23,953 nt of DNA from a virus: the IMG/VR virus record IMGVR_UViG_3300042566_001109, positions 1-23,953 of that record; one strand, given 5' to 3'. The notes beneath the pieces were generated by a model. That model searched no databases. It was given only the letters and a program-made list of their open reading frames with translations, and was not told the origin of the DNA. This document shows, in pieces, positions 920 through 18,911 of this stretch. A program made the position numbers and the translations under genes. Numbering within the stretch: the first letter of the stretch is position 1; each line of letters opens with the position of its first letter.

Positions 920-2098
920 TTATTTGCTGAATGCTGAAAGAGTCTTCAGGTAAGTAGCCATTGAACCAGAAACTGATTCAGGTGAACTATCTACACCCTC
1001 AGAAAGGGTTTCAGTTCTTGCAGATGGAGATGTAGGTCTTGAAGGGAAATATGATTCCTTCAAAGTCTCCAGTTTTTCACGATATTCCTCTTCACTTTCA
1101 AACTCAACACTTTCGGCAAGTGAAGCGAGCTTGTCTTTCTGAGTGTGTGCAAGACCCTCAGAAACCTTTTCAAAGATTCCATCCGCAACCGACTCTGCGA
1201 GACGCTTGTTTAGGGAAACATTCTTCTCAATTTGCTCGTTGAGTTTTATTTCCATGTCATCAAGTTTTTCTACCATGCTCTCTAGAACATCATATTTATC
1301 TTCAGGGATTGTTACATAATGTGCTTCAAAAAGACCCTTCATTCCTGAAAGGAATGATTCGGTCATTTCGGTCTTAAGACCACCCTCAATTGCGAGAGTG
1401 TTCTCAGTGAACCATTCATCAGAAACATACTCTAGGTATGAATCTACACGCTCAGCAAGTTCGGTCTTAATTTCTTCGACTTCTTCTGCAAGAGCGGCGG
1501 CATACTGTTCTTGAAGTGCTTCTTGAATTTGACCAACTTTTGATCTAAGAGCAGCTTCAAAAATAGTTCTTGCCTTTTCTTGGAACTCCTCAGAGAGTTC
1601 TTCGCCGGAAAGAAGAGCATTTACATCTTCTTCGATGTCATATGATTCTTCCATTTCCTCATCTTCGTCTTCTTCGTCTTCTTCGTCTTCGTCCTCTTCT
1701 TCCTTCTTACCTTTTTTCTTGCCGCCCTCTTCTTCTTCCTCTTCTCCCTTAGCTTCGGCAACTACTCCATCTTCATCAATCTCTTCTTCGATGAAATCTT
1801 CATCGTCAAGTTCTTCCTCTTCTTTCACTCCTTTCATTGCTTCAGCAGGCTTTGCTCCTTTGTTGACAACATCTCTTACTTGCTTAAGAGTTGCGCCAGG
1901 AGTCTTCAGTTTTGCTGAATCATCGGTTGACTTATAATTGGAAGGATCTGGTCCACCAAGATCTTCCCATCCTGCAGTTTGACCTGGTGTTGTACCAGAT
2001 AGATTTGGCATTGCGTCCGCTGCCTTAGCATTTGCATTGACAGCGGTTTTGGATTGCTTAGTGCCTACTTCCATTTCTTGTAAATCTCCACGAGACAT
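920..2098 (-). CDS. 22: Prohead scaffold (core) protein gp22, with acidic extension
   Basis: This is the likely internal scaffold of the prohead, degraded by gp21 during maturation. The identification rests on position (21-22-23 order), a long charged alpha-helical C-terminal half (about 155-345) and an ending (YLKTLSAFSK) that I recall from cyanophage gp22. At 392 residues it is well above the 269 of T4 gp22. The extra length is an N-terminal region: residues 30-85 form a glycine/proline/lysine module, and residues 92-157 are almost only E, D and K. Several sites fit the T4 protease rule [LIV]xE|[AGS], for example after E181, E193, E258, E302, E329 and E367. The ATG at 2098 has a clear ribosome binding site (GGAGAG, 7 bases away). 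It lies downstream of an exact TATAAATA box. Confidence 0.9.
   Translation of the reverse strand: MSRGDLQEMEVGTKQSKTAVNANAKAADAMPNLSGTTPGQTAGWEDLGGPDPSNYKSTDDSAKLKTPGATLKQVRDVVNKGAKPAEAMKGVKEEEELDDEDFIEEEIDEDGVVAEAKGEEEEEEGGKKKGKKEEEDEDEEDEEDEDEEMEESYDIEEDVNALLSGEELSEEFQEKARTIFEAALRSKVGQIQEALQEQYAAALAEEVEEIKTELAERVDSYLEYVSDEWFTENTLAIEGGLKTEMTESFLSGMKGLFEAHYVTIPEDKYDVLESMVEKLDDMEIKLNEQIEKNVSLNKRLAESVADGIFEKVSEGLAHTQKDKLASLAESVEFESEEEYREKLETLKESYFPSRPTSPSARTETLSEGVDSSPESVSGSMATYLKTLSAFSK
1628..1825 (-). repeat. Low-complexity GAA/GAG-rich tract coding the acidic region of gp22
   Basis: This stretch encodes gp22 residues 92-157, made almost entirely of E and D with short K/G runs (GGKKKGKK around 125-132). 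At DNA level it is a purine-rich strand of repeated GAA, GAG and GAT codons. Read on the other strand it gives a poly-serine open frame, which is an artefact. Such tracts are prone to length change by slippage. Confidence 0.8.
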
Positions 2099-2156: not shown

Positions 2157-2807
2157 TTACAATGAATTTAAAAATTCATTGAATAATGATAACTTATAGT
2201 CCTCTAGAAGACCTTGATCGACCAAAGTATTTATTTTGTTATATGCTGCTTGTGCAGCCTTTTCTCTAAGAACTCCGCCATCCCATATCCATTCTTTACC
2301 TTCCATAATTCCCTGAACAAAAGCATCAGGTGCAGAAGGGTCGGCAACAATATCAGCAGCAGTTGCTAACATAAAATCTTCACCAACTTCTTTATAACCT
2401 TTTGTGTTCTCTCTTAATGAACCAATACCGCGAGAAGAAACCCCAAGTGTTACTCCATCCTTAAGAAGAGATTCGGCAATCTTGCCCATTGGGGTGGATA
2501 AGATTTGTGCCTTACCGATGAAGTTATTACCTTGACGATAAAGTTCTGTAATTTTATGAGAAACTCTATCAAGATTTACAGTAGGACCATCGGGGTGACC
2601 AAGTTCTCCAAGGGCACGACCTTTCTGAACATACTGCTCATTATAACGACCTACTTCTCGCTCCATAATCTGCATGGGATACATTCTCCCATTGCGATTA
2701 ACACATTCTGCTTGTAAGAATGGTCCTTTGATGTAGAGTTTTGCTTGCTTACCAGTTCCTTCGGTAATAACCTCTACCTTTTCTATTTCTTCTCTGATAA
2801 GTTTCAT
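2157..2807 (-). CDS. 21: Prohead core protease gp21
   Basis: This serine protease of the T4 prohead (fold related to herpesvirus-type assembly proteases) cuts the scaffold and capsid propeptides after [LI]xE. At 216 residues it is close to the T4 protein. Recognisable parts are ECVNRNGRMYP (34-44), ELGHPDGP with the likely catalytic H71, GVSSRGIG with the likely nucleophile S124 (or S125), and ADIVADPSAPDAF (151-163), whose aspartates D152/D156 may complete the triad; the exact triad assignment is inferred from T4. Its ATG at 2807 shares one base with the stop of the upstream gene (TAATG), implying translational coupling. This places protease synthesis under the same message as the fibre-like cassette. 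Confidence 0.93.
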   Translation of the reverse strand: MKLIREEIEKVEVITEGTGKQAKLYIKGPFLQAECVNRNGRMYPMQIMEREVGRYNEQYVQKGRALGELGHPDGPTVNLDRVSHKITELYRQGNNFIGKAQILSTPMGKIAESLLKDGVTLGVSSRGIGSLRENTKGYKEVGEDFMLATAADIVADPSAPDAFVQGIMEGKEWIWDGGVLREKAAQAAYNKINTLVDQGLLEDYKLSLFNEFLNSL

Positions 2808-3383: not shown

Positions 3384-3391
3384 TATTTATT
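3384..3391 (-). promoter_or_regulatory. Late promoter-like AATAAATA before the 183-aa gene
   Basis: The octamer differs from TATAAATA only at its first base. It lies 6 bases after the stop of the 465-aa gene and 25 bases before the next ATG, the spacing seen at the other late boxes in this window. It would feed the 183-aa gene and gene 21. Confidence 0.55.
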
Positions 3392-7179: not shown

Positions 7180-8893
7180 AAATTTCGCCACCCTTGGGCA
7201 TCTTTGCAATACTTGTATTCATTTCTACAGACTTTCCATCTGCTACTGTTGCTCCTCCACCAGTTGCCCCATCAGTATTTGGTTCCATAACAGGTTGTCC
7301 AAGGTCCATTCCTGCAGAGGTTTGGTCTAATGGAAGTCCGGTCATTGGATCAACTGGTGCATTTGGATCGGGAATAATTCCATCTGCAATTTCTTTCTTC
7401 ATCAATTTATCTTGATCGACGATTTCTTGGTCAGTTTGACGAAGAATTTTGCGTCTTACATAATCTTGTGAGAAATATTTTCCAATATATGGCTCTGCAA
7501 CTTGAACCATATTCAACCTTTCATTCAGAAGTTCTGCATCCTTAAGTTCGGCAAAATGGTTATCATATAGGAAATCATATTGAATATGCTCATTCATAAT
7601 CTCCCAATCTTCGGGAGTAATGATATTTTTGAGAATAAGTTGAGTTCTCAGCATATCGCTAAACATATACGAGAATCTTTTTCTCAGTCTAGCAACAAAC
7701 TTGCTGAATTTAACTTCATCGCGAAGAATCTCTGATGAACGACCTAAGTTGAAACCACCTTCACCATCCATTCTTGATGGTGGGACATTTAAAGAACGAT
7801 AAAGTTTCTTTTTAAAATATTCAATATCGGTAATTTCTCCAAGGTTTTGACCACCTGGAAGTGTTGTAATCTCTGTACCTCTACCACCTTCACGGCGAGG
7901 TAACCAGAAATCTTCCAGCATACTCATAAATTTCTTATCATCACGGATTTCTCCAGTTGATGCATCATATACGAGTTTGTTACGATAACGCATCATAACA
8001 TCACGGAGATATTGTTCTGCCTTTACCTTAGGTAGATTGCCTACATCAATATAGAAAATTCTACGCTCTGGAGCACGAGATAGGCGATAGATAACCAGAG
8101 AATCTTCAATCATTCTTAGTTGATTGAGAGACTTGATTGCTTTGTGTAGATATGAAAGAGTTGACCCTTTATTTCTGTCTACAAGACCTGAAGTGCAATA
8201 TGCAATAGAATCTTTTGAGAACTTGATTCCACCAGTACCACCCATCGCAGATGGGTTGCTGGTTGGATAAGTCATCTTTGGATTATAAATGTAATATTCC
8301 TCAATCTCAGGAAATTCATATTGCATTGGGTCGTCAACATTCGTGTTTGCCAACCTATAAATCTTTTTATCCTTCTCAGTTTGCTTTTGTTGGCGAACAT
8401 AACGCATTTTCATTGCGTCAATGTATCTAAGTTCTTGAATTCCCTCGTGAGGATTCTTAAAATCGATTACTTTGTGGTAGTATAGTCTACCATCAACATA
8501 CCAGTTTCTATAAATTTCGTGGGATTTTTTATCAAAATCCAAAAGTTCTAGAATATATTTAAACTCTTCCCTGATTTTTTTCTTAATACCATCACTTGCA
8601 TTAAGATTTGACAGTTCAATTTGTACAGGACTGTCATTAGTATCTGATACGATTGCTTCGTTAACAATATCTTCAATGGCACTATCACACTCCGGATGAA
8701 GTGCCATTTCACGATATCTTTTTATTAAATCAAACTCGGTTCTATAAACACCTTCAATATCTACATAAGAACCAAAAAATCCACTACTTAAGTAAAAATC
8801 ACTCCCGTCCTCACTGTTAGGTGCAACGGGAGATACAATAGAAGGGGATGTTGGTTCTTGATCCTCAATAGAGAATCCAAACAATTTTGCCAT
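7178..8893 (-). CDS. 20: Portal vertex protein gp20
   Basis: gp20 forms the dodecameric ring at the unique head vertex through which gp17 pumps DNA and to which the neck attaches. The product has 571 residues (T4 524). Signature portal blocks are YRLSRAPERRIFYIDVGNLP (269-288), DASTGEIRDDKKFMSMLEDF (310-329) and WLPRREGGRGTEITTLPGGQ (330-349), followed by EYFKKKLYRSLNVPPSRMDG (358-377). These are the conserved stretches widely used as T4-like phage markers. The extra length over T4 is partly a proline/glycine-rich C-terminal tail (about 510-560) that is probably disordered. The ATG at 8893 has a weak upstream AAAGA and a TAAATA box. The gene sits between tail tube and core genes as in T4. Confidence 0.97.
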   Translation of the reverse strand: MAKLFGFSIEDQEPTSPSIVSPVAPNSEDGSDFYLSSGFFGSYVDIEGVYRTEFDLIKRYREMALHPECDSAIEDIVNEAIVSDTNDSPVQIELSNLNASDGIKKKIREEFKYILELLDFDKKSHEIYRNWYVDGRLYYHKVIDFKNPHEGIQELRYIDAMKMRYVRQQKQTEKDKKIYRLANTNVDDPMQYEFPEIEEYYIYNPKMTYPTSNPSAMGGTGGIKFSKDSIAYCTSGLVDRNKGSTLSYLHKAIKSLNQLRMIEDSLVIYRLSRAPERRIFYIDVGNLPKVKAEQYLRDVMMRYRNKLVYDASTGEIRDDKKFMSMLEDFWLPRREGGRGTEITTLPGGQNLGEITDIEYFKKKLYRSLNVPPSRMDGEGGFNLGRSSEILRDEVKFSKFVARLRKRFSYMFSDMLRTQLILKNIITPEDWEIMNEHIQYDFLYDNHFAELKDAELLNERLNMVQVAEPYIGKYFSQDYVRRKILRQTDQEIVDQDKLMKKEIADGIIPDPNAPVDPMTGLPLDQTSAGMDLGQPVMEPNTDGATGGGATVADGKSVEMNTSIAKMPKGGEI

Positions 8894-8914
8894 AATTTAT
8901 TTTAATCTTTGCAC

Positions 8915-8922
8915 TATTTATT
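8915..8922 (-). promoter_or_regulatory. Late promoter-like AATAAATA overlapping the gene 19 stop
   Basis: This is TATAAATA with one change at the first base. Its first two bases are the last two of the gene 19 TAA stop codon, and it lies 21 bases before the gene 20 ATG. The placement matches the other late boxes of this window. Confidence 0.55.
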
Positions 8923-9493
8923 ATGCTTCTTCTGTGGTAGGTGTCCAGTATTGAACCTGGAATTCTACGGTGAATTCCTCAATTGTATCTGAGGTATCAT
9001 ATGAAAGGTCAATTGCAGAGATATTTGTTGGGAAAATGCTATAGAATTTGTAAGTAGCAGCTCTTTCAAGACCAGAACCTGTGGCAATGTTAGTGCCTAC
9101 GTTACTAGCTCCTCTTTTAAACTGCTTTACAAATGCATCAACCATATATTCACTTGGGTTTGTAGCACCACTTCCATCACCATATTGTCCAATGGATTGC
9201 ATCCACTGCTCCATTACGGTTCTAATTGCAAAATCTTGGTCGTTGATAATAGTAATCGTCCAAGTATCAAATGTACGGTCTCCTGCTACCTTGAAAATTC
9301 TTCCTCTAAAGGGAACATCAATAGAAGCAATATTTGACGCAGGTAAAGCAGCTGCCTTACAAAGAATTGGGAAATTGGGTCCCAAAGTATTATTACTTCC
9401 GGGAATAGTACCTGGGATAGTAACTTCAAATAGATTGGGACGAGCTCCGCCCCCTTGCAGTGCTGTTTTAAAGTCCTGGATTGAGTGTGCCAT
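8921..9493 (-). CDS. 19: Tail tube protein gp19
   Basis: gp19 forms the stacked hexameric rings of the inner tail tube. The product has 190 residues (T4 163). It shares ARPNLFEV (17-24), CKAAALPA (45-52), KVAGDRTFDTWTITIINDQD (68-87) and the ending block FPTNISAIDLSYDTSDTIEE (154-173) followed by FTVEFQVQYW with T4 gp19, where the equivalent segments are ARPNLFQV, CKATALPA, VAGDRTFDDW and a closing LDYW. An insertion relative to T4 lies around residues 27-40 (G/P/N/T-rich). The ATG at 9493 has the best ribosome binding site in the window, as expected for an abundant protein. Confidence 0.97.
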   Translation of the reverse strand: MAHSIQDFKTALQGGGARPNLFEVTIPGTIPGSNNTLGPNFPILCKAAALPASNIASIDVPFRGRIFKVAGDRTFDTWTITIINDQDFAIRTVMEQWMQSIGQYGDGSGATNPSEYMVDAFVKQFKRGASNVGTNIATGSGLERAATYKFYSIFPTNISAIDLSYDTSDTIEEFTVEFQVQYWTPTTEEA

Positions 9494-9500
9494 TTTTAAG

Positions 9501-9522
9501 TCCTCCTTTTTGTTTATTTAAT
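9501..9522 (-). promoter_or_regulatory. Strong ribosome binding site and weak late-promoter core before gene 19
   Basis: AAGGAGGA (9501-9508) lies 7 bases upstream of the gene 19 ATG, a near-perfect Shine-Dalgarno match. Just upstream, ATTAAATA (9515-9522) keeps the TAAATA core of the late promoter but differs from TATAAATA at two positions, so promoter activity here is less certain. Confidence 0.6.
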
Positions 9523-9526
9523 AAAA

Positions 9527-11710
9527 TCAAACTGTACCAGCTACTTCTTCAAAACTTACGCCAGTGCGAGTAGCAACGAAAGTAAGAGTTACATAATTAA
9601 TTGACTTTGTAGGCTTCAGATAGATATCAGCTCTAAATTCATTGTTATCAATGACATCAGGAGTATTATTTGAGGTGTCGCAAACAACAAGGAATCCATA
9701 GAGACCTCTCTTTGCCTGAACATCACGGAGGTAGGGTTCAACAATATTTCTAAAGTTTGCTCTAGTGAGTTCATCGTTCAATTCAAAAAGTTGAGCTTGT
9801 GCTGCTTTTTGTAATGCCTGCTCAACTGTGAGGAACAAGCGACGAACATTAATGCGATCAAATGCTGATGCATATCCAAGAGCAGTTTTATCACCAAAAA
9901 GAATAGTACCTACACCAGGTTGAGTTGAAATTGCATTAACTCTTTGTGGATATAGTTGGTCTCTTTGTGCTTTGTTTGGATTGTATGCAAGTTTGATGAC
10001 ATTATTAAGAACTCCACGCTGCTGTCCTGCGGGCGAGAACCAAGGATATGCAACAATATTTGTGCGGCACATTAGACCAGCAACATCAGCATTGCATGGG
10101 ATATATACAAACTTATTGTTGAATCTATCATAAGTGTACTTATATCCACTATCAAATACCGCATAAGATGAGGATGAGAGTGAACTAAAGTATCTGACTA
10201 AGTTGTTTGTTTGAGTTGTGGTATTTGTGATACCAACTAGATCTGATCTGTGAGGTCCAACTGTTGCTACACAGTCCTTTCTTTGCTCTGCAAGTGAGAT
10301 TAAATAACCTGCCTTTGCCTGAGAATCTGATACAGAATCTAGACCAGGACCCATGATCAAGTAATCAACTTGAATTTCATCTCTGTTGGAGAAGAGTGAG
10401 TATGATGTTATAAGATCTCCAAGAGTTGTCTTCATTCCACCAGAGGCAGAATAATCAATACCACCACCTAAGTTGTATGTTTTATTTCCAATTGCACTGA
10501 AGATTACTTCCTGAGCATCTAATCCCCATAGACCATCTGCTGTTGATACTGGAGTGAATGCAGTTGAGAATCCAGTTGCTCTTGGTGCAGTTCCCCAATA
10601 AGCATCGGCAGTACTTGATGGATTATTTCCAGCATAAATTTGGCTGGAATAATCTGCAAGGAATTGCTTGTACCAAATTTTCTGAGGAGAATTGACAGCA
10701 GAAACAGAATCTAGTGCCTTTGAAAGTCCAACATGCTTCTCAATAATTGTTCCTTGGTTTCCTGTGATTGTTCCAAGGTCATCAACAACAACTACATGAA
10801 GACCGTCATTTTTACCATTTCTCTCCAGAACATACTTGTTTGAAGTTGGTTTTGGTGCAATCGACTTCCAATAAATTGTGGAGTTTGTAAGTCCAAGAGT
10901 CTGATTGTCGTACCAATCGGAAATGGATGCTGCAGTTGCAGTACCGGTGGTGATACCAGAATTATTGACAAAACTTAGAGTGCTACTTGCAACATATGAT
11001 GCAAATGTTGCGCTTTCTGCATAATTAATTTGGGTTTCTGTTCCTGCAGAAGAAACTCTCGATACAACTCTTACGTCAATTGTACTATTACCGTTTGTAG
11101 TATCTGTAGATACTCCAGTAATAATTCCCTTCAGGTATCCATTGAAAGTTGAGGTTGTTCCTGCTCCAGGAATAACCACTCCGGAAAGTGTAGATGTTAC
11201 ACCAAATCCAATTCTGGCACCTAAAGAACCTAGATTGGTAGTTGTAATTCCGATTGTTTGATCTGCTAAATCGTCAATGAAGCAAACTTTTAATCCATTT
11301 GCCCAAGATCCAGGATTCTTTGCGGCAAAAGTGAAATTGGTTGCATCAATGTGATTCGCTTGATAATCGTCGTAATTATCAATATCGAGAGAAGAAGTTG
11401 AAGCAATTCCAACACCAGCGTTTGCATTATTCAGTGTTGAACCACCAGTTCTAACAACCTTAAGTACTCCACCATATGAAAGATAGGATGACGCGCTCAT
11501 CCAATATTCATATTGAGAATCTGTACTTTGTGGTTTGCCGAAAGTATTGATTAAATCTTGTTCGGTTGCAATGTCAACTGGATAATCTACTGGTCCAATG
11601 GGAAATGGTCCTGCAATTGCTCCAATGTTATCTAAAACATTATCAGCTCTTCCTACTGTTAAATCAACCTCTCTGACGAGTACGCCTGGAGATAATTGAG
11701 GAGTCGCCAT
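9527..11710 (-). CDS. 18: Contractile tail sheath protein gp18
   Basis: gp18 assembles around the gp19 tube and contracts at infection. It has 727 residues (T4 659). The N-terminus reads LSPGVLVREVDLTVG (6-20), then GPFPIGPVDYPVDIATEQDL (34-53) and INTFGKP, the usual start of sheath proteins. The conserved C-terminal core starts at YPQRVNAISTQPGVGTILFG (587-606) and continues through NVRRLFLTVEQALQKAAQ (621-638), RANFRNIVEPYLRDVQAKRG (650-669) and ADIYLKPTKSINYVTLTFVA (694-713). The middle (about 100-330) is variable and G/S/T-rich, the likely outward-facing protrusion domain that accounts for the extra length. The start has GGAGA 7 bases upstream of ATG 11710, and a late box lies 34 bases upstream. 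Confidence 0.96.
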   Translation of the reverse strand: MATPQLSPGVLVREVDLTVGRADNVLDNIGAIAGPFPIGPVDYPVDIATEQDLINTFGKPQSTDSQYEYWMSASSYLSYGGVLKVVRTGGSTLNNANAGVGIASTSSLDIDNYDDYQANHIDATNFTFAAKNPGSWANGLKVCFIDDLADQTIGITTTNLGSLGARIGFGVTSTLSGVVIPGAGTTSTFNGYLKGIITGVSTDTTNGNSTIDVRVVSRVSSAGTETQINYAESATFASYVASSTLSFVNNSGITTGTATAASISDWYDNQTLGLTNSTIYWKSIAPKPTSNKYVLERNGKNDGLHVVVVDDLGTITGNQGTIIEKHVGLSKALDSVSAVNSPQKIWYKQFLADYSSQIYAGNNPSSTADAYWGTAPRATGFSTAFTPVSTADGLWGLDAQEVIFSAIGNKTYNLGGGIDYSASGGMKTTLGDLITSYSLFSNRDEIQVDYLIMGPGLDSVSDSQAKAGYLISLAEQRKDCVATVGPHRSDLVGITNTTTQTNNLVRYFSSLSSSSYAVFDSGYKYTYDRFNNKFVYIPCNADVAGLMCRTNIVAYPWFSPAGQQRGVLNNVIKLAYNPNKAQRDQLYPQRVNAISTQPGVGTILFGDKTALGYASAFDRINVRRLFLTVEQALQKAAQAQLFELNDELTRANFRNIVEPYLRDVQAKRGLYGFLVVCDTSNNTPDVIDNNEFRADIYLKPTKSINYVTLTFVATRTGVSFEEVAGTV

Positions 11711-11744: not shown

Positions 11745-11752
11745 TATTTATT
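11745..11752 (-). promoter_or_regulatory. Late promoter-like AATAAATA before gene 18
   Basis: One base away from TATAAATA, it lies in the 63-base gap between genes 17 and 18, about 21 bases after the gene 17 stop. The leader that follows contains the ribosome binding site GGAGA. It would drive sheath and tube genes. Confidence 0.6.
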
Positions 11753-11773: not shown

Positions 11774-13420
11774 CTACTGATAATCCCACATGTATGACAT
11801 ATCACCATATTCGTCAGTGAACCATCTATCACCATCTGTGTCTACAAAACTTTCATTATCTAATCCATCAGAAACAAATCCAAAAGGTGCCATATCCTGC
11901 TCAATTTGATTTTTTTGTTCCTCATACAATCTTTTTCTAACATCTTGGTCAGTAAGTTCTTTGAAGTAATCTTGAGCAACTAACCATGCATAGATTACAA
12001 GGCACATCGCTAGGTCATCATTACACCCTTCTTCTGCCTCAAATGAATTATGCTTTTGAATAAAAGTGGTTAATTCACTAATTATTTCATAGTCATTAAG
12101 ATATAACTTATCCTCCTCAATCATAGTCTTAAGATTGAGACATCCAACTTTTTTTACAGTTTTGGACATCTTTACGCCAAGCTGAGTCTTTTTGCCCGAG
12201 AATCCTTGACCAACAATTTGACCTGCTCTACCACGCATAGAACACATTAGCAAATTGTTATATTCCAAATCATATTGAATAATACTGGCAACTTGATCTC
12301 CAACATCATTCACTTCACATAAAATATAAGCATCATTATAACTTTTTGCAACATCAACAATAATGCTTGGAAAAAGCATTGGTTTGATTTCGTTATTTCT
12401 ATATTTTCCTACAACTCTATGAGGGAACTGTGTAATATCAACAATCGTAAATGCAGAATAGTCGTTTCCAACACCCCTAGCAACGTCTACAGTGAGCAAG
12501 TAGTCGTGTTGCTCCTCTGGGTCGCAATATACATCCAAACCCGCACTACGGGTCTTAGGGTGGTCATAGACGAGGTTCCTGAGTTTGCTTGGTGCAATGA
12601 GGGTATCAACTGATCCTAAGAATTCGCATTCAAACTCAACTTTAAATTGTTGCTCACTGGTGTTTGCAATAGTTTGTGCTTTCCACTTCTCATCTCTACC
12701 AGGAACTTCACTCCAGTGAACATCAGTGAAGATATATTCATTTTTTCCCTTCTCAGCATCGTGCCACATACGGTAGAAATGATTCATACCGTGAGGGGTG
12801 GAAACTATAATAACCTTTGTACTTTTACCCGAAGTAATCGTAGGATATACTGATGCAAAGAATGAATCTGCAATATGATTTGGAACGAACGCAAATTCGT
12901 CCAAGAATAGAATGTTGAATGACATACCACGAACAGCAGATGCTGATGTGGAAGCAGCAAGAATTTTGGAACCGTTCTCTAATTCAAGTGAGCCTTTGTT
13001 CCACGAAATAATACCCTGTTGCATCCACTTGGGTAAATTTTCATATGCAGTTTGTAGTCTATCAAGAAGTTCTCTTGCGGTCGCGGCTTTGTTTGCAAGA
13101 ATACCAATATTTACATTGTCATTAAAAACGGCATAGTGTAAAAGAAAAGATACTACAGTGGTAGATTTTCCTGTCTGTCTAGGCATTTTGCAGATATTAA
13201 ATCTGTGCCTATGAAAATTATTGACCAGTTTCTCTTGAAATGGATACATCTCAAAAGGCATTAATCCGTGGTCAAGTGTTACGATTTTTACATAATTTTT
13301 TGCAAAATAAACAGGATCATCCTTACACCTCATAAACTCAAGAATTTGCTCTTGAGTAAATTCTATAGAGGTATTTGCTTTTTTTAAATTCGGATTACCA
13401 AGATAAACATCATCTGCCAT
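11774..13420 (-). CDS. 17: Terminase large subunit gp17 (packaging ATPase and nuclease)
   Basis: gp17 is the DNA-packaging motor that docks on the gp20 portal, cuts concatemeric DNA and translocates it using ATP. It has 548 residues (T4 610). The N-terminal ATPase has Walker A PRQTGKST (80-87), Walker B ILFLDEF with D174 and E175 (170-176), and the coupling motif STPHGMNHF (207-215). The C-terminal RNase H-like nuclease has D312 in TVDVARGVGNDYSAF (310-324), E369 in ILCEVNDVG (366-374) and D468/D469 in CNDDLAMCL (466-474), matching T4 D401, E458 and D542. All key residues are present, so the enzyme appears intact. The ATG at 13420 is preceded by AAGGAG 6 bases away. Unlike T4, where genes 16 and 17 adjoin, a 556-aa gene separates it from gene 16. 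Confidence 0.98.
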   Translation of the reverse strand: MADDVYLGNPNLKKANTSIEFTQEQILEFMRCKDDPVYFAKNYVKIVTLDHGLMPFEMYPFQEKLVNNFHRHRFNICKMPRQTGKSTTVVSFLLHYAVFNDNVNIGILANKAATARELLDRLQTAYENLPKWMQQGIISWNKGSLELENGSKILAASTSASAVRGMSFNILFLDEFAFVPNHIADSFFASVYPTITSGKSTKVIIVSTPHGMNHFYRMWHDAEKGKNEYIFTDVHWSEVPGRDEKWKAQTIANTSEQQFKVEFECEFLGSVDTLIAPSKLRNLVYDHPKTRSAGLDVYCDPEEQHDYLLTVDVARGVGNDYSAFTIVDITQFPHRVVGKYRNNEIKPMLFPSIIVDVAKSYNDAYILCEVNDVGDQVASIIQYDLEYNNLLMCSMRGRAGQIVGQGFSGKKTQLGVKMSKTVKKVGCLNLKTMIEEDKLYLNDYEIISELTTFIQKHNSFEAEEGCNDDLAMCLVIYAWLVAQDYFKELTDQDVRKRLYEEQKNQIEQDMAPFGFVSDGLDNESFVDTDGDRWFTDEYGDMSYMWDYQ

Positions 13421-13437: not shown

Positions 13438-15108
13438 TCAACAGTTCCAAGCTCTAAGTGATTTATTAATTCTAGAATCTGGGTCGTTTGCGGTCTTTGC
13501 TGAAGTTAATTTCTTCTTCATGCCTTTCATACGAGCACAGAAAGAATCTCTGCGTGATCCACCTTCTGGTTGTGGTCTTTTTAAATCACTACCAGGATTC
13601 TCTCTTTCATAGGACTTACGACCCTTTTCATTTAAACCACCACTTTGAGACTTTCCTTCTTTTCTTTGCCAGGCAGCAACTTCTTCTATTTTTTCTTCGC
13701 CAATTGTTCCGTTATTGAGAAGATAATTTTTTGACTTTGAATTTACAACTTGAATCAGTGGCATTCCCGGTTGAATTCCGGAAACATTATATTGGAGAAC
13801 TTGAGCCCCTGGATAAACTTTCTGAATCTCCAATGTTACATCTTTTCTGGTTGGCATTCCTACTTGAGGGAAGAACATTCTAATCGAATATGTTTTTCCT
13901 CTCCAAGAAAGAATCACTGCAATAATATTACCAGTTTCTGACTGAAGACGAGTTGCCTCTTCAATTTGAGATTTAAAACCTTTAATTGGTTCTGGTTTAA
14001 TTATATCAACTACTTCAGCAAAAGTATTTCCATTGGCATCTTCAATAGTTACTGATTCTTTTTTAGTTTTATCTCCCCAGTTTGCAGCACCTGCCTTACG
14101 GCACTTAACTAATGCTCCAGATGCATATGCACTTGGCCAAATTTTATATCTTGATTTTACCTTTTCCTTACATGCATCTTCATTTACAAATTCTTCAGTT
14201 GCAACATTTTTTGCCTTACCAGATCTTTCTGGATTTGGATCTTCTTTTCTCTTTCTTCTTGCTGCTCTTTCTTCTTCTTCAGGTGACATTTCTGATGCCA
14301 TTTTAGAACTACCGCATTTTGGTTTGGTATCCTGTCCTGGTTGCTTTGCACATGGTTTTCCGGCGTACTTACCACCCAATTGTACCCATCCAGGTTTTCC
14401 ATCGGATGATTTGCTTTTAGAAAACCAGTCATGAAGAGAAGAGTCGCCTGATTTTGATGCTTCTATAAGTTCATCTAAAATTTGATTTACAAGTTGATTC
14501 TCGCTTACTGGAACACAATTTGGAACACTTTTTTTACCTTTCTTTTTCATTCCAACTTGCTTATATCCACTCCAACATGCTTCATCCATTTCTCCGCCAG
14601 CAACATAATCGGCAGCAGTATCAATATAATCAGATGCTTTTGTTATTTTTGATTGTACCCATGCTTCTAAATTACCTTCTCCCTTTCCAACCTTCATTTG
14701 CAATCTCTTAATTGCATCTGCCATAGTTGAAAGTTCTGAACGAACCATAGAATATTCTTCATCTTTGACAGACACCTTATCCCATGCTTTTTCGCCATAA
14801 GAACATTCAGTTCTTGATTCCCTCTTATCACAAAGGGGGCAATATCTTTGCTCTTCTTTCGATTCCTTTACATCTTTAAATTTTTTATGCTCTTTCTTTG
14901 CAGATGCTTCCATTTTCTTTAAACGAGTATAGTAATCTGGAATTTCGTCTAGGTGCTGAAGAGCAATATCCATAGCAAGTTCATGATCTTTTGTGTGCTC
15001 ATGCTCAATTGGTTCTCCCATATCCAGTTGCTTCTGAATAAAAGAAACATCAAGACGATGCTTCTTTGCAATTTGTTCTACTGTTTTATGAGATTTCAAC
15101 TTCGGCAT
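13438..15108 (-). CDS. Polymodular Cys/Lys-rich protein of unknown function (556 aa)
   Basis: The function is unknown. The protein is a chain of short modules. Residues 1-67 form a helical domain with EHEHTKDHELAMDIALQHLD (35-54) then EIPDYYTRLKKME, which I recognise as DUF5661-like. Residues 88-114 contain CPLC plus a third cysteine (C90, C93, C102), a possible metal-binding knuckle. Residues 147-169 read LEAWVQSKITKASDYIDTAA then DYV. Residues 174-200 are a DEACWSGYKQVGMKKKGKK module. Residues 225-300 hold LHDWFSKSKS, GWVQLGGKYAGKPCAKQPGQ and a basic stretch (RAARRKRKEDPNPERSGKAK). Residues 312-345 read ACKEKVKSRYKIWPSAYASG then ALVKCRK. Residues 352-470 are a folded alpha/beta segment. Residues 488-556 are a GLNEKGRKSYERENPG...SFCARMKGMKKK...SLRAWNC tail. 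I recall several of these modules scattered through cyanophage genes. No catalytic motif is seen. Confidence 0.85.
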   Translation of the reverse strand: MPKLKSHKTVEQIAKKHRLDVSFIQKQLDMGEPIEHEHTKDHELAMDIALQHLDEIPDYYTRLKKMEASAKKEHKKFKDVKESKEEQRYCPLCDKRESRTECSYGEKAWDKVSVKDEEYSMVRSELSTMADAIKRLQMKVGKGEGNLEAWVQSKITKASDYIDTAADYVAGGEMDEACWSGYKQVGMKKKGKKSVPNCVPVSENQLVNQILDELIEASKSGDSSLHDWFSKSKSSDGKPGWVQLGGKYAGKPCAKQPGQDTKPKCGSSKMASEMSPEEEERAARRKRKEDPNPERSGKAKNVATEEFVNEDACKEKVKSRYKIWPSAYASGALVKCRKAGAANWGDKTKKESVTIEDANGNTFAEVVDIIKPEPIKGFKSQIEEATRLQSETGNIIAVILSWRGKTYSIRMFFPQVGMPTRKDVTLEIQKVYPGAQVLQYNVSGIQPGMPLIQVVNSKSKNYLLNNGTIGEEKIEEVAAWQRKEGKSQSGGLNEKGRKSYERENPGSDLKRPQPEGGSRRDSFCARMKGMKKKLTSAKTANDPDSRINKSLRAWNC

Positions 15109-15130: not shown

Positions 15131-15138
15131 TATTTATT
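15131..15138 (-). promoter_or_regulatory. Late promoter-like AATAAATA overlapping the gene 16 stop
   Basis: One base from TATAAATA, with its first two bases inside the gene 16 TAA stop codon, and 22 bases before the ATG of the 556-aa gene. It could transcribe the 556-aa gene and gene 17 separately from gene 16. Confidence 0.55.
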
Positions 15139-15571
15139 AATCTTGATTATCTTGAGACTGTTGCTTTAAAAGTTTTGCAAGTTCTGCAGTGGAACCAACA
15201 AATAATGCATTTGTCACATTTGTTGGACCTTTTACTCCCCTTTCTTCTTCAATATCCTTTAGTTTTTTCTGAAGATCCATCAATTTGTCTGTAGCATCGG
15301 CAACATTTTTGATAAGTTGTCCAGCAACCTCATATGCTCTAGGCATTTCACTTTCTTGAGCAAGTTCGAGAATACCGTTTATTGCTTCTTGTCCCTTTTC
15401 AATAAGAGAATATAAATTACCTCTGGTATAGTCATAATCCTTTTTAATATCATCAATTGATGAAGAAATTTTTTCAATTTTTTCAACCGAAGTTTCTACC
15501 TCCGGAACAACTATCTCCCCAGAAACATTGAATGTGTTATTTAAATCCTCAAATTTTTTTGTCATTTTCAT
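15137..15571 (-). CDS. 16: Terminase small subunit gp16
   Basis: gp16 forms a ring that recognises DNA ends and stimulates the gp17 ATPase. It has 144 residues (T4 164). The helical core matches T4: DYDYTRGNLYSLIEKGQEAI (45-64) corresponds to DDYGVVRRN..., ELAQESEMPRAYEVAGQLIK (69-88) to ETAKNADSPRHMEV, and NALFVGSTAELAKLL (121-135) to NATVFMGSPTEL. The central part (47-110) should form the coiled-coil oligomerisation region. Two in-frame ATGs are possible (15571 and 15565), neither with a good ribosome binding site; the upstream one is given. It begins 9 bases after gene 15. Confidence 0.92.
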   Translation of the reverse strand: MKMTKKFEDLNNTFNVSGEIVVPEVETSVEKIEKISSSIDDIKKDYDYTRGNLYSLIEKGQEAINGILELAQESEMPRAYEVAGQLIKNVADATDKLMDLQKKLKDIEEERGVKGPTNVTNALFVGSTAELAKLLKQQSQDNQD

Positions 15572-18903: not shown

Positions 18904-18911
18904 TATTTATA
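18904..18911 (-). promoter_or_regulatory. T4-type late promoter TATAAATA before gene 13
   Basis: An exact match to the T4 gp55 late-promoter octamer. It overlaps the last codon and TAA stop of the 59-aa gene (CTA TAA ATA) and lies 20 bases upstream of the gene 13 ATG, so the predicted leader is about 10-15 bases. Confidence 0.75.

Follow-up and report, generated by a model that had tools for sequence, protein, structure and literature searches.

The 556-aa protein encoded between the two terminase genes of this virus is probably expressed late and carried as cargo inside the head of a T4-like cyanophage, and it has a modular build that is shuffled among relatives. It might also be a capsid-packaged polyprotein whose exchangeable effector modules are released by the gp21 protease in the head before injection, a reading that we hold with considerably more doubt. 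The protein falls in a cyanophage cluster (T4-GC 119, PHROG 727) that is known, although not characterised, and that occupies a known variable slot.

Gene context and late-promoter-like box

The slot gene is found at 13438..15108 on the minus strand of the window, which is the whole 23,953-nucleotide stretch analysed (IMG/VR record IMGVR_UViG_3300042566_001109). A first-pass annotation had described a gene separating gp16 and gp17, and the ORF lies exactly at 13438-15108; its strand was not given there. ORF analysis places the ATG at 15108. An in-frame TAG occurs four codons 5' of this ATG, so the protein has no N-terminal extension. The gene begins 28 bp after the end of gp16, the terminase small subunit (15137..15571, minus strand; DNA_Packaging, E 2e-8), and its stop lies 17 bp before gp17, the terminase large subunit (11774..13420, minus strand; Terminase_6, E 2e-24). 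In T4, genes 16 and 17 overlap. The window also encodes the S77 prohead protease gp21 (2157..2807, minus strand; Pfam E 1.6e-38) and the prohead scaffold gp22 (920..2098, minus strand; Pfam E 2e-81). Judged by gp17, the closest of the named phages is Synechococcus phage S-SCSM1 (87.6%).

A late-promoter-like box, AATAAATA, is located at 15131..15138 on the minus strand, 23 bp 5' of the start codon of the slot gene. The late promoter of phage S-PM2 is NATAAATA (PMC2984593). The window contains eight such boxes where 5.5 are expected, and this count alone is unremarkable. However, because all eight are on the coding strand and seven of them sit 21-41 bp 5' of a start codon, the box of the slot gene, which had been proposed earlier, is credible. 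WATAAATA boxes at this spacing also occur on the coding (minus) strand upstream of other late genes, at 2135-2146, 3384-3391, 8915-8922, 11745-11752 and 18904-18911. The window scan revealed no late-promoter-like box belonging to gp17 itself, and gp17 is probably co-transcribed with the slot gene.

Module structure

Profiles of eight modules, A to H, were built from 80 IMG/VR loci and from phage records, and all ORFs were searched with them. All modules of the 556-aa protein lie on the minus strand. Module A (residues 11-67, 14908..15078) is a helical DUF5661 domain (Pfam E 2.6e-13), modelled by AlphaFold2 with pLDDT of about 90-96. Module B (residues 84-113, 14770..14859) has a CPLC...C pattern with three invariant Cys residues. 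It is followed by module C, a two-helix LEAWVQSKITKA module (residues 114-171, 14596..14769; profile and AlphaFold2), and by module D, ACWSGYKQVGMKKK...PNCVP (residues 172-203, 14500..14595; profile, AlphaFold2 and alignment), which is a beta hairpin. Module E (residues 218-305, 14194..14457; profile and alignment) is basic and has the pattern DWF...GKPGW...KPC..KPKC. Module F (residues 308-346, 14071..14187; profile and alignment), DAC...WPSAYASGALVKCRK, matches DUF5872 weakly, and the middle of the protein has no other Pfam annotation. Module G (residues 376-455, 13744..13983; profile and alignment) has a beta-beta-alpha-beta arrangement and, in relatives, also occurs as a stand-alone protein with a capsid-targeting sequence (CTS). 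Module H (residues 472-556, 13441..13695; Pfam and profile) is a basic DUF6321 module that ends at the stop codon. Its Pfam match covers residues 485-554 (E 6.6e-21), and DUF5661 and DUF6321 both score above the Pfam cut-offs.

The first-pass annotation had counted at least seven modules, starting with a helical DUF5661-like segment. That start is borne out by the Pfam match and the helical model, every motif quoted there is present, and eight modules are now resolved. What had been called a basic linker is indeed basic, but it is no linker: residues 218-305 form a further conserved module (E).

Modules D, E, F and H each contain one Cys pair, which is kept in all aligned family sequences. These pairs, and the triplet of module B, may form intramodule disulfides or metal sites. 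The median pI of the slot-protein family is 9.5 (n=89); modules A, B and C are not basic. An earlier suggestion that the protein associates with DNA or nucleoprotein is plausible from this composition. The AlphaFold2 model resembles beads on a string, in which the modules are confident and the overall pTM is 0.28.

A PDB sequence search with the 556-aa protein gave a single chance match (E 0.2), and Foldseek searches of PDB with the full model and with module G gave no match below E 0.001. Against viral models, Foldseek gave ten matches below E 0.001, and all named ones are cyanophage proteins. No enzymatic domain was detected in the protein by Pfam and PHROGs, which returned only DUFs, or by sequence and fold searches of PDB, and Pfam and PHROGs detected no terminase family domain. 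A module G model (m4bd118406826) is weakly and non-significantly (E above 1) like T7 Gp2, RNAP epsilon/YkzG and phi29 p56; T7 Gp2 and RNAP epsilon/YkzG are host RNA polymerase binders, and the likeness is only a lead. None of the papers searched names DUF5661 or DUF6321. In Caulobacter phage Cr30, DUF5661 occurs alone with a CTS-like start, and Vibrio phage VPs20 encodes a DUF5661-DUF2213 fusion that is flanked by terminase and major-capsid-type genes.

Family and module shuffling

The 556-aa protein matches PHROG 727, a family of unknown function, over three stretches (E 1.1e-122). The gp16-gp17 slot holds T4-GC 119 in the S-SM1 and S-SM2 records, and slot proteins are found at the matching position in S-SM2, S-SM1, S-SCSM1 and B23. 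The earlier statement that the system has no described function is right; the family itself is not unknown, as it is covered by T4-GC 119 and PHROG 727 and is called 'T4-like structural protein' in some records. The region between gp16 and gp17 is a hot spot of variable genes (Sullivan et al. 2010, PMC3037559), and in several phages it also carries plastocyanin, PTOX, gnd/zwf or tail-fibre-like genes.

More than 40 distinct module orders occur among the relatives, some of them from truncated ORFs. The order A-B-C-D-E-F-G-H of the 556-aa protein is shared among relatives with one locus only (L005); other examples are A-E-F-B-C-D-G-H, E-F-D-G-H and C-D-E-F-B-G. Module E is usually followed by F, and module H is always last where it is present. 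Module order and content vary wildly, whereas gp17 is about 85% identical. These orders support the mix-and-match build, and the recurrence of modules in other cyanophage genes is shown by searching with each module profile separately.

The module pool exceeds eight, because KHSDLYTDENPKGTIHGLGF, SHKTPHLKGKQHQLDPNLDLKQL and CPAGQYYCYTDKKCKPIPKGF blocks are found in the N-termini of relatives (for example, at loci L048, L070 and L030). A second tagged slot protein, which starts with MKTLKQFLKET, is represented by SSM2_108 (L087, 31377-31805) and by relatives such as that at L018, 259-690. Proteins of the SSM2_108 type end in another recurring module, SNKYKKSIDCSNPKGFSQKAHCAGRKK.

Relatives reported in purified virions

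The literature and public records place relatives of the slot protein in virions. SSCSM1_29, which has modules E-F-D-B-G-H and is encoded shortly before gp17, is called a 'virion protein' in the S-SCSM1 record, and this record marks MS hits (PMC9602691). In phage S-CREM2, ORF137 (G-H, in the slot) and ORF160 (E-D-F) are both in the virion MS table (Table 3), in which gp16 and gp17 are absent; ORF137 is supported by 4 peptides and 4.1% coverage. The S-SM2 record attaches the note 'similar to S-SM1 protein' to virion proteins (gp25, 6, 13, 14, 15, 18, 19, 20, 21, 23 and 3) and to GC 119; the note is missing from gp16, gp17, gp22, UvsY, UvsW and gp55. If these notes reflect S-SM1 virion proteomics, as their distribution suggests, presence of the S-SM1 slot protein in virions is implied. 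Slot gene 194 of S-SZBM1 is absent from the S-SZBM1 MS Table 1, and S-SCSM1 and S-SZBM1 have tagged G and H proteins for which no MS detection is reported. MS indicates presence in purified particles and not position, and co-purification is possible, as the authors of virion proteomes warn.

Capsid-targeting tags

T4 internal proteins IPII and IPIII start with MKTYQEFIAEA. In the T4 CTS, residues 4 and 7 serve capsid targeting and residues 8 and 10 serve processing, and gp21 cuts after L/I-x-E (PMC9026906). A corresponding start, MKxFxxF[I/V]xE, is found in 7 of 74 complete slot proteins; all seven genes lie in the gp16-gp17 slot, and none of the seven proteins has DUF6321. Examples are MKTFQEFILEA, MKSFKQFIKET and MKNFKEFIDET, in which positions 4, 7, 8 and 10 of the T4 tag are kept. 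None of 63 complete slot proteins with DUF6321 carries the tag (Fisher p 1.8e-7, calculated on related sequences). The 556-aa protein likewise has no N-terminal tag: it starts with MPKLKSHKTVEQ, with the stop codon upstream in frame. DUF6321 was considered as a substitute for the tag, because the two hardly co-occur; SSZBM1_192 has both, and the idea stays hypothetical. In many relatives, a protein of about 105 aa that consists of module G alone is encoded just 3' of the slot gene and starts with MKSFKQFLSES or a similar sequence.

Most metabolic enzymes reported in cyanophage virions also carry the tag pattern, for example as MKDFDSFLEE, MKNFSSFLTEA or MKSFLQFLKEA. Tagged enzymes detected by MS are, in S-CREM2 (record OR473000, loci L109-L118), ORF6 (SAM hydrolase), ORF14 (kinase), and ORF136 and ORF154 (cytidylyltransferase), and the NMNAT proteins S-SZBM1_140 and S-SCSM1_91. 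The S-CRM01 kinase gene SCRM01_130c carries the pattern as well, and a kinase is among the proteins reported from S-CRM01 virions. Among plausible gene starts with the tag pattern, 4 of 5 in S-CREM2 are MS-detected (Fisher p 0.01), as are 6 of 10 across three genomes (p 0.004, with an approximate gene total for S-SCSM1). Such a tag would explain the packaging of SAM hydrolase, kinases and cytidylyltransferase/NMNAT. None of the papers searched describes a CTS in cyanophages; the single co-occurrence of the terms has cyanophage only in its reference list. S-CREM2 ORF12 (7704-10313, minus strand), which is annotated as a Cas9 nuclease, is also in the virion MS table. Its residues 17-27, LRFASFMAEAA, are tag-like but lie at an internal CTG codon; the annotated start may be wrong.

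Module joints

The motif [LIVMF]xE, which is short and is similar to the sites cut by gp21, is found at most module joints. In the 556-aa protein, six candidate gp21-type sites are predicted on the minus strand, written here with a slash at the putative cut. MDE/A (after E176, 14581..14589) precedes module D, LIE/A (after E216, 14461..14469) precedes module E, and VNE/D (after E310, 14179..14187) is at the start of module F. FAE/V (after E365, 14014..14022) lies in the linker before module G, IEE/A (after E384, 13957..13965) is assigned to the joint before G by motif and alignment, and IEE/V (after E476, 13681..13689), found by motif, precedes module H. Five of the six are in or beside linkers of low confidence in the AlphaFold2 model. 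The Glu before module G is present in all 83 sequences aligned, and it matches up with the Glu of the tag in stand-alone G proteins.

The Glu nearest before each module was compared with Glu residues in control structural proteins. A hydrophobic P3 accompanies it at 59% of joints versus 32% of controls (OR 3.1), and A, G or S is at P1' in 55% versus 16%; before module G, these proportions reach 97% and 83%. Modules B and C fail this test, with the signal being present at A, D, E, F, G and H. A hydrophobic P3 followed by E and a small or polar P1' is almost absent inside module cores. The joint motif is enriched over shuffled upstream windows at every joint (z 4-10), but these figures overstate the significance because homologous joints are not independent.

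Proposed mechanism and alternatives

In the proposed mechanism, the protein is put together from freely recombining modules that each fold on their own, and several of which are basic and have Cys pairs, and it would enter the prohead core in the manner of T4 internal proteins. Relatives that lack DUF6321 would do so through their N-terminal CTS, for which gp22 would be the receptor, whereas the 556-aa protein presumably relies on a different part for entry, which might be DUF6321 or DUF5661. Trimming by the gp21 protease would probably take place at module joints, and a polyprotein cut in this way would account for the shuffling of modules into any order. Packed with the DNA, the protein would enter the host at infection, where its modules may protect the DNA or interfere with host functions. 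These roles are suggested by the rapid turnover of modules and by T4 IPI, which blocks a restriction enzyme (PMC3012670).

Several other functions would fit part of these data. An uncut, histone-like head protein that condenses DNA and has no effector would account for the family's basic median pI and for the basic proteins of DUF6321 alone that podoviruses encode near capsid genes. Nevertheless, such a role is unlikely, since modules A, B and C are not basic and the extreme shuffling and turnover suit a diversifying cargo better. The invariant Cys pairs of four modules, together with the presence of relatives in virions and neighbours annotated in some phages as tail-fibre-like or YadA, could instead point to an external or neck/tail protein (an adhesin, whisker or decoration) whose disulfide-stabilised modules face sea water. 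We regard this as quite improbable in view of the T4-type tags on slot orthologs and on stand-alone module G, and of the DUF6321 mini-proteins that adjoin scaffold or capsid genes in T7-like cyanophages.

The packaging or virion factor proposed by the first-pass annotation is upheld only in its second half, by the relatives annotated or MS-listed as virion proteins. An accessory that acts with gp16 and gp17, and whose basic composition would let it bind DNA or the terminase, would agree with the position of the gene and with late transcription in common with gp17. Beyond position, nothing points to packaging, and this role is very unlikely: the slot is a hot spot shared with unrelated genes (PMC3037559), module order and content are far more variable than gp17, and relatives remain in purified virions for which S-CREM2 Table 3 lists neither gp16 nor gp17. 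The low coverage of ORF137 and the warnings about co-purification would also allow a late, nucleic-acid-binding protein of the host cell that merely accompanies the particles. However, three virion proteomes (S-SM1, S-SCSM1 and S-CREM2) independently report or mark relatives, and together with the tags on orthologs they make this explanation more improbable still. An internal head cargo protein is the preferred reading.

Cyanomyoviruses rank with the most abundant viruses of the sea, and very little is known of the cargo that accompanies their DNA into the host. With a head-targeting tag of T4 type that can be read in them, genome sequences yield testable lists of packaged cargo, and the tag offers a reason for the SAM hydrolase, kinase and NMNAT-like proteins in virions that proteome papers leave unexplained. 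A shuffled and possibly protease-released string of modules in a fixed slot would, if true, be a new way of diversifying cargo. On the polyprotein reading, the gp16-gp17 slot of marine T4-like phages would be a cargo-loading island.

Comparison with known systems

T4-GC 119 (Sullivan et al. 2010) and PHROG 727 share with the 556-aa protein the gp16-gp17 slot and homologous modules. Earlier work on them described no modules, tag or mechanism, and the member studied here starts with DUF5661. T4 IPI, IPII and IPIII (and Alt) are head cargo, are basic and hypervariable between phages, and have an N-terminal CTS that is cut by gp21 (PMC3012670, PMC9026906). This CTS is also found on slot orthologs, but not on the 556-aa protein. 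Moreover, the T4 internal proteins are single units of 95-193 aa, whereas slot proteins are strings of shuffled modules of about 280-740 aa. The T4 prohead core proteins gp22, gp67 and gp68 are cut by gp21 into several pieces and, provided that the joints are genuine cleavage sites, would resemble the slot protein in having more than one site of L/I-x-E type; unlike this removable scaffold, the modules of slot proteins look folded and conserved. Polyvalent proteins (Iyer et al. 2017, PMC5512222) are likewise multidomain, shuffled and predicted to be injected, but they fuse disparate enzymatic domains, of which the 556-aa protein has none detected. In cyanopodoviruses, DUF6321 mini-proteins (P-SCSP1q_18, L143; S-TIP37 gp28, L142) consist of module H alone and are encoded beside scaffold or major capsid genes; in contrast to the slot protein, they are single units of 71-84 aa and belong to T7-like phages unrelated to T4.
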